IMG/VR virus record: IMGVR_UViG_3300032282_004537
Span: 1 to 29,090 of that record
DNA: 29,090 nucleotides
Strand: one strand, 5' to 3'
DNA from: a virus
Positions 13,366-26,906 of the stretch are shown here, in pieces. The notes under the pieces were generated by a model. That model was not told where the DNA came from. It searched no databases and saw only the letters and a program-made list of their open reading frames with translations. A program made the position numbers and the translations under genes. How positions within the stretch are numbered: the stretch's first letter is position 1; every line of letters starts with the position of its first letter.

Positions 13366-13950
13366 ATGAAACAATTTTTGACTGAATGGCGTAAATTTCT
13401 CTTAGAAAATAAAGAACCAAAACTTCTTGATGTTCCAGATATACGTCAATTTAATGATTATAGTTGTGGTTCTGCTTGTTTATTAGCGGTTCTTGCTTTT
13501 TATGATTTATATGATAAAAATGAGAAAGAATTAACAAAAGAACTTAATACCAATAGTGAAGATGGAACTTCATTAAAAGCAATTAAGCGAGTTGCTGAAA
13601 AACACGGTTTAAATTGTAGTGTTAGAAAAGAGTGTGATTTAGAAGAATTAAAGTCTTCTTTATCAAATGGAAATCCTGTAATATTGAATTTCCAAGCATG
13701 GTCAAAAGATAAGAAGCCAAATTGGAAAGATGATTGGAAAGACGGACATTATGCTGTTCTTGTTGGAATAGATAAAGAAAATCTTTACATGAGAGATCCC
13801 AGCATTTATAATAAAGTCGGAACTTTACCGGTTAAAGAGTTTATGGATAGATGGCATGATATGGGAAAAGATAAAGAAAAATTATATAATGTTGCTATTT
13901 TCTTTTCAGGCGAACAAGAAACAGATCAAGAATTTGAAAAGATAAAATAA
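13366..13950 (+). CDS. C39-like cysteine peptidase with the same leader segment
   Basis: A papain-fold peptidase of the C39 / C39-like type. Catalytic residues are Q28 and C34 (RQFNDYSCGSACLLAV), H128 (GHYAVLVGI) and D144 (MRDPS). C39 domains usually cut after double-Gly leaders and are fused to ABC transporters. Here the 194-aa protein has no membrane part. The N-terminus MKQFLTEWRKFLLEN is shared with the preceding C45-like protein in 11 of the first 14 positions. A short AT-rich gap separates the genes, with TATTTATT at 13345. Target could be a host or virion protein. Role in the phage is unknown. Confidence 0.7.
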   Translation: MKQFLTEWRKFLLENKEPKLLDVPDIRQFNDYSCGSACLLAVLAFYDLYDKNEKELTKELNTNSEDGTSLKAIKRVAEKHGLNCSVRKECDLEELKSSLSNGNPVILNFQAWSKDKKPNWKDDWKDGHYAVLVGIDKENLYMRDPSIYNKVGTLPVKEFMDRWHDMGKDKEKLYNVAIFFSGEQETDQEFEKIK

Positions 13951-22495: not shown

Positions 22496-23006
22496 TAATA
22501 GTATTTCTGTCCAAGAAATATGGAAGCCGGCAATAAAAAATAATAAAGTTCTACCTGGCTATGAAGTTTCTAATCTTGGTAAAATTAGAAACAAAAAAGG
22601 TATTATCTTAAAATGTCAAGATGAAGTGCCATCAGGCAAAGGTGCTTTCAAAGGTGCCAGACAATCGATAGGATTATCAATACCAGAAAATTTATATGAA
22701 GATTATAAATACAAGAAAACAACACCAAATCGTAAATCTTGTAAGATTACAATCTCAGTTCATCGTCTAATCATAGAAACTTTTAAACCTATCGATGATT
22801 ATCCACCTATTCCAAAACACGAATGGGATGTAACTCCAGAAAGTGCTAAAAGATTAATAAGAGAATGTTGTGTTGTAGATCACATAGATAATAATCCATT
22901 AAACAACAACATTAATAATTTACGCTGGGTTTCATTAAAAGAAAACCAAACATTTATAAAAAAACATTTATTCAAAAAAGAAAGTATTGGTGAAAACATA
23001 TGCTAA
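22473..23006 (+). CDS. HNH homing endonuclease (NUMOD4 + HNH)
   Basis: A 177-aa free-standing endonuclease. NUMOD4 at ~15-45 reads EIWKPAIKNNKVLPGYEVSN followed by LGKIRN. The HNH part reads VDHIDNNPLNNNINNLRWVS near 138-157. It starts inside the last codons of dut (AGAGGTAATA before ATG 22473) and overlaps the methyltransferase start by 7 bases, so it has inserted without breaking either neighbour. Likely cleaves dut or adjacent sequence in related phages lacking it. Separate from the GIY-YIG enzyme. Confidence 0.88.
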   Translation: MDLVQQADNSISVQEIWKPAIKNNKVLPGYEVSNLGKIRNKKGIILKCQDEVPSGKGAFKGARQSIGLSIPENLYEDYKYKKTTPNRKSCKITISVHRLIIETFKPIDDYPPIPKHEWDVTPESAKRLIRECCVVDHIDNNPLNNNINNLRWVSLKENQTFIKKHLFKKESIGENIC

Positions 23007-23488
23007 AGAAAGATAGAGATGTTCTTTTTAGTCACAAGAGTGACGAATGGTCGACCCCACAGCACATTTTTGATAAACTAAATCAAAAGTACAATTTCAC
23101 ACTTGATCCGGCAAGTGATGGAACAAATAATAAATGTGTTAAACATTATACGATGAAAGAAAATGGATTATCCCAGAGTTGGCATGGTGAAACTGTGTTT
23201 GTCAATCCACCATATAGTAAAATATATGATTGGGTTGGTAAAGCATATCACGAAGTTGTGAGAGGAGATACAACTGTGGTAATGCTACTGCCTGCTAGAA
23301 CTGATACAAAATGGTTTCATGAATTTTGTATTGAACCAATACTTGTTAAAAGTATAACATTTATTAAAGGCAGATTGAAATTTGGTGGTAATAAAAATTC
23401 AGCACCATTTCCATCTATGATTGTTGAATTTTGTCATCCAAAAAAACCACCATCACAGCCAGATATTCTTACTATGAGTAATAAATGA
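23000..23488 (+). CDS. Phage-type DNA N6-adenine methyltransferase
   Basis: Matches the phage Dam-like family. DEWSTPQHIFDKLNQKYNFT leads to LDPASD (SAM-binding region, ~35-40), then the catalytic NPPY at 69-72 (FVNPPYSKIYDW) and VMLLPARTDTKWFHEF. A C-terminal FIKGRLKFGG follows. It would methylate adenine at N6, protecting phage DNA or marking it. At 162 aa it is a normal single domain with no target-recognition insert. It starts inside the end of the HNH gene, with only a weak SD. Adenine methylation implies that normal adenine is present in the DNA, which bears on the PurZ question. Confidence 0.88.
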   Translation: MLKKDRDVLFSHKSDEWSTPQHIFDKLNQKYNFTLDPASDGTNNKCVKHYTMKENGLSQSWHGETVFVNPPYSKIYDWVGKAYHEVVRGDTTVVMLLPARTDTKWFHEFCIEPILVKSITFIKGRLKFGGNKNSAPFPSMIVEFCHPKKPPSQPDILTMSNK

Positions 23489-23763
23489 AACCAATAAAAG
23501 ATAAATCAAAATCATACAAGGATAAAGAAAAAGACCTCAAACAGAAATTAAATATGTTTGATCGTATTCCAGATCATTGCTTGACTTGTAACTCTCCGTT
23601 TGATAGAAAGAATAAGGAGCAAGTTCAGTCGTGGTTTGTTGTTGTAAAAAACGCTGACAATAAAGTAAATCTTTATTGCCCTTCATGTTGGGGTAAAGCA
23701 ACATCGTTGGTTGAACAAGTTATTAATGGAGAAAAAAATGCTACAGACAGCTCTGACGTTTGA
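23485..23763 (+). CDS. Small zinc-ribbon-like protein, 92 aa
   Basis: Basic, helical N-terminus (MKPIKDKSKSYKDKEKDLKQ), then HCLTCNSPFD and LYCPSCWGKA: two CxxC knuckles about 36 residues apart that would hold one zinc. The start overlaps the methyltransferase stop (ATGA). Its 3' end overlaps the IMPDH gene start by 26 bases. No function can be given. Confidence 0.6.
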   Translation: MKPIKDKSKSYKDKEKDLKQKLNMFDRIPDHCLTCNSPFDRKNKEQVQSWFVVVKNADNKVNLYCPSCWGKATSLVEQVINGEKNATDSSDV

Positions 23764-24571
23764 TGATGTACTTCTTGTGCCAAAATACAGTTCAATTACG
23801 AGCCGAAGCGAAGTTGATCTAAAACTTAATCTAGATCCAACAAGACAACTTTCTCTTCCTGTTATTTCATCTCCGATGGATACGGTTACAGAAGTAGAAA
23901 TGGCTGTAACTATGTCCAAACATGGTGGTCTTGGAATTATACATCGTTATAATTCTATTCAAGAGCAAGTAAAACTTGTTTGTGATGCAAAACAAGCAGG
24001 TGCCAAACTTGTTGGTGCTGCTGTTGGTTCAACAGGCGATTTCTATGAAAGAGCATTTGAACTTATAAAATTTGATATTGATGTAATTTGTGTTGATGTT
24101 GCACACGGACATCACCAGAATGTAAAAGAAGCAATACAAAAGATTAAAAATCATCCAAGTCATTATAAGTTCCATCTTATGGCTGGAAATGTTGCTACAG
24201 GAAAAGCTTTTCAAGATTTAAGTGATTGGGGAGCTGATAGTATCCGTGTAGGTATTGGTGGTGGTTGTTTCGTCCCAGGAACTCTTGTAAATACTGAAAA
24301 TGGTTTGAAGAAAATTGAAGAAGTAAAAGTAGGTGATAAAGTTTTCAGTCATACAGGAAAACTACAATCTGTTGTTGATACTCTTGTGTTTGATAGAGAC
24401 GAAGAAATTGTATCTATTAATGGTATTGATTGCACTAAAAATCACGAGTTTTATGTAATTGACAAAGAAAATGCCAGTCGTGTAAATGAAGATAATATTC
24501 ATCTATTTGCCCGATGGGTTCATGCAGAAGAGCTTGATATGAAAAAACATCTACTTATTGAATTGGAGTAG
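23738..24571 (+). CDS. guaB: IMP dehydrogenase-like N-terminal half fused to N-intein
   Basis: Residues 1-176 are the first part of an IMPDH/GMP-reductase TIM barrel: FDDVLLVPKYSSI, SSPMDTVTE, GGLGIIHRYNS, DVAHGHHQ, MAGNVATG and VGIGGG. The CBS domains usual in IMPDH are absent. Directly after GIGGG begins a 101-residue N-intein (C177, CFVPGT) and a stop codon. ATG 23738 follows GGAG by 6 bases. A longer in-frame frame from TTG 23711 lies in the previous gene. The enzyme becomes whole only if this chain trans-splices with the product of 24684-25313. IMPDH makes XMP from IMP and leads to guanine nucleotides. GMP reductase is the alternative. Confidence 0.9.
   Translation: MLQTALTFDDVLLVPKYSSITSRSEVDLKLNLDPTRQLSLPVISSPMDTVTEVEMAVTMSKHGGLGIIHRYNSIQEQVKLVCDAKQAGAKLVGAAVGSTGDFYERAFELIKFDIDVICVDVAHGHHQNVKEAIQKIKNHPSHYKFHLMAGNVATGKAFQDLSDWGADSIRVGIGGGCFVPGTLVNTENGLKKIEEVKVGDKVFSHTGKLQSVVDTLVFDRDEEIVSINGIDCTKNHEFYVIDKENASRVNEDNIHLFARWVHAEELDMKKHLLIELE
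24266..24568 (+). mobile_element. N-terminal half of a split intein (IMPDH-1 type)
   Basis: 101 residues from the nucleophile C177 of the host protein to the stop. CFVPGTLVNTENGLKKIEEV is the first block. TKNHEFYV is block B with the TxxH motif, and FARWVHAEELDMKKH lies near the end. The sequence closely recalls the IMPDH-1 split intein reported from environmental phage-like sequences. No endonuclease domain is inside. Insertion is at GIGGG/SICST, two residues before the catalytic Cys. Confidence 0.92.
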
Positions 24572-24694
24572 GTACAAAATGCAGGAACAGCACAACTGAA
24601 TGGTTATAAATTATATCGCGTTAGAGAAGATGAAAATAGAAAAGTAGATTTTCTAAAAGAGATCAAACAAATAAGGGAGTTTTATGAAGTTTAA
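24572..24694 (+). pseudogene. Open-frame relic between the intein halves, possibly a homing endonuclease tail
   Basis: In the frame of the N-half and directly after its stop, 40 codons stay open to TAA 24692. They include LNGYKLYRVREDENRK and FLKEIKQIREFYEV. The shape (L-x-GYK-x-x-RxRE-E, then a Lys-rich helix) looks like the C-terminal end of Vsr-like (very-short-patch-repair) homing endonucleases, the type associated with fractured intein genes. No start codon or upstream domain remains. The tail overlaps the C-half start and its SD. The identification is tentative. Confidence 0.5.
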
Positions 24695-24803
24695 ATTAAA
24701 AGAAATAACCTCTATTGAGACAAAACACTATAAGGGTGTCGTACATGATCTTACCGTAAATGAAGATCATTCTTATAATATTCGTGGAACAATTGTTCAT
24801 AAC
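24684..24803 (+). mobile_element. C-terminal half of the split intein
   Basis: 40 residues starting MKFKLKEITSIETKHYKG, with block F (VHDLTVNEDHSYN) and block G ending VHN, followed by Ser as the +1 extein residue. This His-Asn-Ser junction is the standard splice end. It pairs with the N-half at 24266-24568. Confidence 0.92.
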
Positions 24804-25313
24804 TCTATCTGTTCAACACGACTACAAACAGGTTTTGGTGTTCCTAATCTTGCTGCTATATTTGATTGTGTTCAGACACAGGCATATAAGAGTGGAAAAA
24901 CAAAACTTATTGTTGATGGTGGTATTAAGAATAGTGGAGATATGGTAAAAGCTTTTGCTGCTGGTGCTCATTTTGTTATGTGTGGTTCATTACTTGCCGG
25001 AACAGATGAAAGTCCAGGTGAAACTTTTGTTGATGGTAATGGCGTAAAGATGAAGAATTACCGTGGTATGGCTTCAAGAGAAGCACAAACAGATTGGCGC
25101 GGTAAAAGTTCAGCACCAGAAGGTATTTCTACGTTCATTAAACACAAAGGTTCAGTAAACCCTATCCTTGATGATATTCGTGGAAACATCCAAAGTGGAT
25201 TTTCATATGCCGGTGCAAGAAACTTCACAGAACTATCAGGTAAGGTTGAGTTTATTCAGCAGACAAGTGCTGGTGCTGCTGAAAGCTTTACACATATCTT
25301 ACATAAAAAATGA
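24684..25313 (+). CDS. guaB: C-intein fused to the IMP dehydrogenase-like C-terminal half
   Basis: Residues 1-40 are the C-intein and 41-209 the C-extein. The extein starts S41-I42-C43, completing the IMPDH loop GSICSTR with catalytic C43. Then TGFGVPNLAAIFDC, IVDGGIKNSGDMVKAFAAGA, MCGSLLAGTDE, YRGMASREAQ, APEGIS and SGFSYAGA follow. The flap region is short and lacks the clear Arg-Tyr pair of typical IMPDH. The joined enzyme would be 345 residues, close to GMP reductase length. ATG 24684 follows AAGGGAG. The stop overlaps the start of the next gene (ATGA). Confidence 0.9.
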   Translation: MKFKLKEITSIETKHYKGVVHDLTVNEDHSYNIRGTIVHNSICSTRLQTGFGVPNLAAIFDCVQTQAYKSGKTKLIVDGGIKNSGDMVKAFAAGAHFVMCGSLLAGTDESPGETFVDGNGVKMKNYRGMASREAQTDWRGKSSAPEGISTFIKHKGSVNPILDDIRGNIQSGFSYAGARNFTELSGKVEFIQQTSAGAAESFTHILHKK

Positions 25314-25648
25314 GTGAAGAACAAAATCCACCTCAAGGTGCAAAACCATGCCAAGTATGTTTCGAAACAATAGACGGTGAATATGCTCGTCTGATGATAA
25401 AATTAAGACATGAAGAACTCACTAAAAAAGAGTTCTTTATTGCTATTATTAACGGTTTTCTTGAAGATGAACCAAACTTAAAAGAATTCCTAAAAGCATA
25501 TCGAAAGAGTAAAGGTTATGCTCAATGGAAAGAAGAAGTGCTTGACAAGGAAATAGAAGATGGTAAAATTGAGATGCGTAAATTCGGTCTAGATAAAGAT
25601 GAAATAGACGATATTTACGATCTTTTTGATGATGAGGCAGGATTATGA
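25310..25648 (+). CDS. Unknown acidic protein, 112 aa
   Basis: Begins MSEEQNPPQGAKPCQVCFET with one CxxC and continues as a helical, Glu/Lys/Asp-rich chain (EFFIAIINGFLEDEPNLKEF) to an acidic end (DIYDLFDDEAGL). It sits between guaB and the purA-like gene with ATGA overlaps on both sides, so it is translated with them. No domain recognised. The context suggests only co-expression with purine genes. Confidence 0.6.
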   Translation: MSEEQNPPQGAKPCQVCFETIDGEYARLMIKLRHEELTKKEFFIAIINGFLEDEPNLKEFLKAYRKSKGYAQWKEEVLDKEIEDGKIEMRKFGLDKDEIDDIYDLFDDEAGL

Positions 25649-26661
25649 ATTATAAAAGATTAAATGCTGATATTATTATTGGGCTAGATCATGGTGACGA
25701 GGGAAAAGGTAAAGTAACCAATTCATTACTAAAAAATGGTGAATATACTCACTGCATTAGGTACAATGGAGGTCATAATGCCGGCCACACCATTTACAAT
25801 AATGGAAAGAAAGTTGTAACACATATAGTTCCTTCTGGTGTATTACAAGGTGTAAAATCTATTATTGGTCCTGCTTGTGTTGTATCTCCAACACTCTTAA
25901 AAAAGGAAATAGAAGATTTAGAAGAAGCAGGTGTAGAAGTAAAAAAACATCTTTATATAGATAAACGATGTAATGTTATTACTCCTCGTCACCTTGAGGA
26001 AGACGGAAAAGATACAAAAATAGGTACAACAAGAAAAGGTAATGGTCCAGCATATCGCGACAAATATGATCGCAAAGGTTTAAGATTTGGCGATTTACCA
26101 GCAGATCCAGATTTTAAACTAACTGATATGTACGAGGAATTCTTTAATAATGATCACGTTGTTGCTCTTTTTGAGGGAGCACAAGGTTTCGGATTAGATA
26201 TTGATTGGGGAGATTATCCATACGTTACATCATCAACTTGTACGGTTGGTGGAGCAGTAATAAATGGACTTCCACCAAAATCAATCCGTAAAGTGTATGG
26301 AATAGCCAAAGCATACCAAACATATGTAGGAGCGAAGAAATTTCAGCCAGAAGGCGAAATATTCAATAAAATTCGTGAAATTGGTATGGAATATGGCGCT
26401 ACAACAGGAAGACCAAGACAAGTAAATTATCTTGATTTAGATTTCCTTGTTAAATCAACAAACATTAATGGTGTCTCGCATCTTATTATTAATAAAACTG
26501 ATATTTTACAAGAAGTTAATGAATGGAAGATGTATAAAGACGGTCAATTAATTGATTGTAAATATGAAGACAAGTTTAAGGATTTAATCAAAACAGCACT
26601 TTTAAGAAAATGTGAAGAATTAGAACAAGTTCATTTTTCATATTCAGCGGAAGGTATTTGA
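25645..26661 (+). CDS. purA: Adenylosuccinate synthetase-family enzyme (PurA / PurZ0-like)
   Basis: A short member of the family, 338 aa, like archaeal PurA and phage PurZ rather than the ~430-aa bacterial form. Phosphate loop GDEGKG at 17-22 keeps D18, the catalytic Asp, and H48 (NAGH) is the second catalytic residue. RKGNGPAYRDKYDRKGLRFG, EGAQGFGLDID, YVTSSTCT and the Asp-binding ATTGRPRQVNYLD follow. NKTD at 283-286 is the guanine-recognition motif, so GTP is the expected phosphate donor. PurA makes adenylosuccinate from IMP. PurZ enzymes act on dGMP to make the 2-aminoadenine precursor and usually lack the Asp, and later forms lack the guanine motif. This one therefore fits PurA or the GTP-using PurZ0. 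Confidence 0.85.
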   Translation: MNYKRLNADIIIGLDHGDEGKGKVTNSLLKNGEYTHCIRYNGGHNAGHTIYNNGKKVVTHIVPSGVLQGVKSIIGPACVVSPTLLKKEIEDLEEAGVEVKKHLYIDKRCNVITPRHLEEDGKDTKIGTTRKGNGPAYRDKYDRKGLRFGDLPADPDFKLTDMYEEFFNNDHVVALFEGAQGFGLDIDWGDYPYVTSSTCTVGGAVINGLPPKSIRKVYGIAKAYQTYVGAKKFQPEGEIFNKIREIGMEYGATTGRPRQVNYLDLDFLVKSTNINGVSHLIINKTDILQEVNEWKMYKDGQLIDCKYEDKFKDLIKTALLRKCEELEQVHFSYSAEGI

Positions 26662-26669
26662 GGTTGGAT

Positions 26670-26906
26670 ATGAAAAAATGTAGCCAAAAATGTGTAGAAT
26701 TACAAACAGAATGTCCCAATACTGATTGTAGATATTGGGTAGAACATCAACAAAGTTTAAATTGTTGTTTTGTAGCCATAGATCAAAATGGAGAGATGGA
26801 TTTGCGAACTATTGGTAATATAATGGGTGTTAGTTTTGTGAGAATAAAACAAATCCAAGACAAGGCTATAACTAAGATAAACCGAGCGTTAAAGATACTA
26901 CAATAA
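26670..26906 (+). CDS. Cys-rich protein with sigma-region-4-like helix-turn-helix, 78 aa
   Basis: The N-terminal third has Cys at 4, 8, 15, 20, 32 and 33 (KKCSQKCVELQTECPNTDC), a likely zinc site. The C-terminal half (residues 44-75) reads DLRTIGNIMGVSFVRIKQIQ then DKAITKINRAL, closely like sigma70 region 4 (x-EIG-x-x-LGVTRERIRQIQEKALRKLR). Region 4 binds -35 DNA or the RNA polymerase beta flap. It could redirect host polymerase or act as an anti-sigma-like regulator. ATG 26670 follows GAGG at good spacing. A GTG-like earlier frame from 26658 is unlikely. It ends the purine operon. Confidence 0.7.
   Translation: MKKCSQKCVELQTECPNTDCRYWVEHQQSLNCCFVAIDQNGEMDLRTIGNIMGVSFVRIKQIQDKAITKINRALKILQ

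Follow-up and report, generated by a model that had tools for sequence, protein, structure and literature searches.

The DNA analysed here (hereafter the window) is a virus fragment of 29,090 bases with a GC content of 33.9%. It carries a gene for an adenylosuccinate synthetase, purA (25645-26661, plus strand, as are all the features of this locus), whose product of 338 aa belongs to a compact type found in a clade of phages, as judged from its translation, profiles, trees and a structure model. The gene is part of an overlapping series formed by the C-terminal part of an enzyme of the IMPDH/GMP reductase family (PF00478, see below), orf112 (25310-25648), which matches no known family, purA itself and a gene for a sigma-70 region-4-like protein (26658-26906; PF04545, 24.6 bits, barely above the cut-off) that overlaps the end of purA. 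The start of purA shares 4 nt (ATGA) with orf112, in the manner of a translated operon. Conservation of orf112 beside purA, the PF00478 gene or the sigma-like gene was seen in 17 of 80 loci. A Dam-type N6-adenine methyltransferase (PF05869, with an NPPY motif) is encoded at 23000-23488, and the other genes recognised by profiles in the window include a class II ribonucleotide reductase, DnaB, a 5'-3' exonuclease, ThyX, a dUTPase and DnaE. The purA reading frame is a real gene, since hundreds of viral relatives exist. Comparison with five relatives gave a dN of 0.19-0.29 against a (saturated) dS of 1.2-1.7, and the gene is under purifying selection.

In another part of the window, a gene for an acyltransferase-like protein (PF03417, 12289-13344) adjoins one for a C39-like peptidase (13366-13950). 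The two proteins are unrelated and begin with a nearly identical leader, MK(E/Q)(L/F)LTEWRKFL, which could serve to target packaged proteins to the capsid.

The purA product is the only one of the record that matches PF00709 (Adenylsucc_synt; E 6.6e-87, 292 bits with a cut-off of 27, in two stretches). Translation and profile bear out the earlier note on this DNA, which had described a PurA-family protein of this length keeping the Asp of a GDEGKG loop and an NKTD motif. The protein also matches PHROG 1211, a family named '2-aminooxy adenylosuccinate synthetase' that lumps PurA with PurZ. The NCBIfam equivalog PRK01117 gave 281 bits, under the curated cut-off of 402, which is an annotation threshold and no biochemical feature; the small size of the protein lowers the score.

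Residues that separate PurA from PurZ and PurZ0

The catalytic residues of PurA are present in the window protein (numbers are those of E. coli PurA, with Met as 0, unless the window protein is specified). Its GDEGKG loop (window residues 17-22, 25693-25710) contains Asp18 and Glu19, the equivalents of the catalytic Asp13 and of Glu14, and His48 (25786-25788) corresponds to the catalytic His41. The guanine-recognition motif (T/N)KxD is found as NKTD (window residues 283-286, 26491-26502), aligned with Thr330-Asp333. The contacts with IMP and aspartate, namely Thr129, Arg143, Gln224, Arg303 and Arg305, are all kept in the alignment. Among them Arg303 (Arg256 in the window protein, 26410-26412) contacts the 2'-OH of IMP and is Lys or Leu in most PurZ and PurZ0. 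The protein also resembles the bacterial enzyme (E. coli purA, 432 codons) in Lys331, Asp333 and the GATTGR loop.

This conservation extends to the whole phage clade. In the alignment, every one of the 92 distinct clade sequences has Asp13, Lys16, Asn38, His41, Thr129, Arg143, Gln224, Thr239, Val273, Arg303, Arg305, Lys331 and Asp333, and the PurA-type GATTGR loop appears in nearly all of them, the window included. The reference PurZ and PurZ0 sequences, on the other hand, have Ser at position 13 (11/11) and lack Lys331 (11/11) and, with one exception, Arg303 (missing in 10/11). Ser has been described at the site of the catalytic Asp in 100% of 147 phage PurZ/PurZ0 (PMC12884076), and Arg303, which balances the O2' of IMP in PurA, is displaced and does not do so in PurZ (PMC8342488). 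The PurZ0 of Gordonia phage Archimedes (PDB 7VF6) is, like the window protein, a phage-encoded member of the PurA superfamily of similar size, but it has Ser for Asp13, Lys for Arg303 and Met for Lys331, and is 23% identical to it in the structural alignment. The PurZ of phages phiVC8, S-2L and SH-Ab 15497, which share the superfamily and the phage origin of the gene, have GSTGKG, Lys or Leu for Arg303, Phe for Lys331 and Asn or Gln for Asp333. As far as the alignment allows us to judge, every residue separating PurA from PurZ and PurZ0 is of the PurA type in the window protein. Given these residues, the enzyme reads as one whose substrate is a ribonucleotide lacking a 2-amino group and whose donor is a guanine nucleotide; we infer both substrate and donor from the residues.

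The earlier note had also considered a GTP-using, PurZ0-like intermediate, which would act on dGMP and make a precursor of 2-aminoadenine. Such a reading has in its favour that the protein is phage-encoded and short and falls in a PHROG with a PurZ-type name, and that the GDTGKG loop of some of its relatives resembles the GSTGKG of PurZ. It is contradicted by Asp13, Arg303 and Lys331, invariant in the clade, and by the GATTGR loop, all of the PurA type. The key formed by Asp13, Arg303 and Lys331 would sort the viral proteins that PHROG 1211 lumps under its PurZ-type name.

The phage clade has changes of its own as well. Arg272 is replaced by Tyr and Arg306 by Gln in the window protein and throughout the clade (92/92), a pair found in 0 of 79 bacterial, 0 of 11 reference PurZ/PurZ0 and 0 of 68 other viral sequences. 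Since these substitutions are fixed at otherwise invariant arginines, the clade enzymes could differ in kinetics or in the substrate they prefer. All sequences of the bacterial PurA set have Glu14, but some two thirds of the phage clade have another residue at this site (32 of the 92 sequences have Thr, 23 Cys and 7 Ser, and 30, with the window among them, keep Glu). In E. coli PurA, mutation of Glu14 severely impairs the enzyme. Most of the relatives (L013, L037 and others) have GDTGKG, GDCGKG or GDSGKG, with the Asp kept and Glu14 gone, a loop that was found in none of the bacterial PurA set. PurZ has Thr at position 14 too, but paired with Ser13, whereas the phage-clade relatives keep Asp13. 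The two fixed changes and the frequent replacement of Glu14 could point to a PurA-like enzyme with a shifted substrate (e.g., dIMP or another 6-oxopurine nucleotide), serving another base or metabolite. We consider this very unlikely: the compared contacts with IMP, aspartate and GTP are otherwise intact, including Arg303 for the 2'-OH, the window protein keeps Glu14, and no modification cassette was recognised nearby.

The phage PurA family and its place among PurA proteins

A scan of IMG/VR with the window PurA as sole query confirmed 319 relatives, of which 80 were kept at 53-72% identity. A second scan added further sequences, and the clade came to 92 distinct members after de-duplication, a set that is biased towards the window PurA by having been gathered by similarity to it. 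Among 50,697 records of isolate phages there was no PurA relative above 60% identity (the best, at 41%, came from a 735-kb phage genome), and close matches to the purA region at the DNA level came, in isolates, to a single stretch of 192 bases. A scan of genomes returned bacterial PurA and a single phage-like contig of a bacterial MAG (L102), whose PurA is 50% identical to that of the window and falls inside the phage clade. This contig also encodes endolysin-, helicase- and RusA-like genes, and therefore is probably phage DNA. Among undoubted bacterial PurA, the one closest to the window protein has about 40% identity with it. The compact PurA proteins are a large, environmental, phage-only family with invariant changes of its own.

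The AlphaFold model of the window PurA (pLDDT 89.7) has a predicted structure with the complete PurA fold. It matched E. coli and mouse PurA with a Z of about 39 and 2.1-2.2 A over 326-330 residues (Z 39.3, 2.2 A and 326 residues for E. coli), Pyrococcus PurA with a Z of 34.9, PurZ0 with 31.9 and PurZ with 28.9-30.2. The model is thus closest to bacterial and eukaryotic PurA, then to archaeal PurA, PurZ0 and PurZ in this order, with a possible slight pull towards bacterial PurA from some bacterial PurA rows in the input alignment.

Unlike E. coli PurA, the window protein lacks the equivalents of residues 117-122, 155-197, 346-349, 360-386 and 421-431. The second of these deletions, of 43 residues, was found in 158 of 158 clade members, and is located in the same place as a deletion (153-195) in the PurA of the archaeon Pyrococcus horikoshii (PDB 5K7X/2D7U), which is also compact and also keeps the Asp. 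The two proteins differ in another deletion (E. coli 360-386 in the window protein versus 338-380 in Pyrococcus) and in residues 117-122, which are present in Pyrococcus, and the archaeal enzyme has GTVTGR and Met331 where the window protein has GATTGR and Lys331. The deletion common to the phage clade and Pyrococcus may be either convergent or ancestral.

A careful tree of 77 sequences was built, together with a wider quick tree; archaeal PurA was sampled by the Pyrococcus chain, one archaeal-type gene from a Rhizobium plasmid and two viral sequences. The phage PurA family formed a clade of its own (support 100/100), apart from another clade (100/100) made up of archaeal-type PurA, PurZ0 and PurZ, in which the PurZ0 of Archimedes is nested. 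A tree of this composition had been suggested in the earlier note, and its outcome speaks against the PurZ0-like intermediate. Forcing the phage clade together with PurZ/PurZ0 was rejected (AU p = 2e-5, at a cost of 144 log units). A specific archaeal origin, i.e., grouping with archaeal-type PurA, was also rejected (AU p 4e-4, 83 log units). The protein had earlier been assigned to an archaeal/phage short type; the position of the 43-residue deletion agrees with this, but the implied kinship does not hold, and sequence and model are nearer to bacterial PurA. Placements of the phage clade, which has a long stem, inside and beside bacterial PurA were about equally acceptable (AU p 0.56), and the lineage may have split off in ancient times, close to where bacterial PurA begins.

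That both sequence and structure are nearest to bacterial and eukaryotic PurA, over archaeal PurA or PurZ, would also be expected of a host purA of no special kind that had been captured recently (a simple moron gene). This origin is very improbable in view of the distance to undoubted bacterial PurA, the phage-clade membership of the closer match on L102, the long stem, the 155-197 deletion common to all members and the invariant changes specific to the clade. These sequences point instead to an old phage lineage, with no recent capture.

Genes of the 2-aminoadenine (Z) pathway

The phages that encode the PurZ proteins mentioned above have DatZ, and sometimes MazZ, in their genomes. None of the profiled ORFs of the window was a DatZ, a MazZ or a DNA polymerase I, and the polymerase found was of the DnaE type; in a fragment of 29,090 bases such absence proves little. 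The observation of the earlier note that DatZ and MazZ are missing from the window was confirmed, and we have extended it, using positive controls that worked, to 34 related records. The DatZ profile exceeded the cut-off in 0 of these 34 (with one sub-threshold match) and in 4 of 4 PurZ phages, while DUF550/MazZ matched 0 of the 34 and both of its positive controls. The case against Z genes is strong for the family but no proof for the window phage, because no family record is known to be complete.

Several purA-carrying phages (G004, G007, G010, G018-G021, G031, G032, G042 and G046) have divergent ORFs, about 395-400 aa long, that resemble DNA polymerase A. Some of the PolA-profile matches in relatives are ORFs of this kind and no full-length polymerases like DpoZ. 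The dUTPase of the window scores with the canonical dut profiles, whose C-terminal motif it retains. The genes taken from two PurZ0 phages as DutZ comparators did not align as dUTPases. The N6-adenine methyltransferase next to this locus had been taken as an argument against full replacement of adenine by Z; its presence is consistent with that view, but the argument is weak. Overall, there is no sign of a 2-aminoadenine DNA pathway around the window PurA.

With the trees and the gene content added to the residues, the PurZ0-like intermediate appears extremely improbable. The alternative reading in the earlier note, a true PurA, has been upheld: the protein very probably has the predicted PurA chemistry, converting IMP, aspartate and GTP to adenylosuccinate, because residues, tree, model and gene content all support it. 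What could have been a missing-link motif to Z-DNA would then be ordinary PurA chemistry, and the interest of this enzyme appears to lie in its lineage and in its partner enzyme.

The PF00478 neighbour and a possible route from GMP to AMP

The gene of the IMPDH/GMP reductase family with its split intein, missed by the earlier note, is the more informative neighbour of purA. It extends over 23711-25313 and is interrupted just before the loop of the catalytic Cys. The N-terminal part of the enzyme (23711-24265) is followed by the N-half of the intein (24266-24571, recognised by a Hint domain match), and the C-half (24684-24803), which ends in HN before a Ser, is followed by the C-terminal part of the enzyme (24804-25313); both parts of the enzyme were identified by profile match and alignment. 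The intein resembles IMPDH-1, one of the characterised split inteins (it is named in PMC7090010). Two related contigs (G001 and G007) have the intein as one contiguous piece within an ORF of 770 aa, and three others (G004, G005 and G006) have an uninterrupted gene free of any intein, so that the fractured, contiguous-intein and intein-free states all occur in one phage group.

Without its intein, the enzyme has about 350 aa with no insertion, and the active-site Cys loop GSxCxTR is present as GSICSTR. The Cys, Thr and Glu common to IMPDH and GMP reductase are retained. There is no CBS (Bateman) domain, which some IMPDHs also lack. The flap is short and without the Arg-Tyr dyad, a feature of GMP reductase; the dyad was found in 0 of 21 phage sequences (the window and 20 readable relatives, L252 being left out of the count as misread through its intein) versus 16 of 16 bacterial IMPDH. 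In IMPDH, Arg418 and Tyr419 carry out the hydrolysis step, and loss of Arg418 slows this step about a thousandfold (PMC2525682). In the tree, where long branches are in play, the phage clade grouped with IMPDH at 97/95 and no grouping with known GMP reductases was seen; the scores with the NCBIfam profiles were below all cut-offs. Having neither a CBS domain nor an Arg-Tyr flap, the enzyme could be a GMP reductase that supplies IMP to PurA, or else an unusual IMPDH. Of the phages with a GDEGKG-type PurA, 7 of 7 also had a full-length PF00478 gene on their record; over all records, 27 of 48 gave a PF00478 match. Three proteins from phages of the GDTGKG group (L380, L381 and L382) are divergent and IMPDH/GMP reductase-like, with the loop GGGSGCLTSANTG.

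Two related contigs, G045 (162 kb) and G068 (102 kb), contain relatives of PurA (58 and 43% identical, respectively) and of PurB together with a PF00478 gene. The lyase of G045 gave an E of 3e-129 and 431 bits, with a cut-off of 446. With PurA and PurB, a phage possesses both of the steps that lead from IMP to AMP. In the first of them, GTP would phosphorylate the O6 of IMP and aspartate would displace the phosphate group to give adenylosuccinate, from which the lyase, normally the PurB of the host and phage-encoded in these two contigs, would free AMP. By drawing on the IMP branch point, the phage PurA may pull flux towards adenine nucleotides for the A+T-rich genome; both the direction of the flux and the benefit to the phage are what we infer from the predicted activities.

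It is conceivable, though on balance doubtful, that the compact PurA and the CBS-less, flap-less PF00478 enzyme form a conversion module leading from GMP through IMP and adenylosuccinate to AMP. The PF00478 enzyme would be matured by splicing of the split intein, its conversion of GMP to IMP would feed PurA, and a PurB of host or phage origin would finish the route from adenylosuccinate to AMP. If so, guanine nucleotides of the host would be turned into adenine for an A+T-rich genome. Large environmental phages appear to carry their own IMP-to-AMP enzyme, some of them with PurB, beside another enzyme acting at the IMP junction, which makes phage control of the balance between adenine and guanine a testable idea. 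Outside the phages, an archaeal-type purA (L258, 1189-2196) is located beside folE and purB in plasmids of Rhizobium leguminosarum, as if it were part of a small-molecule pathway.
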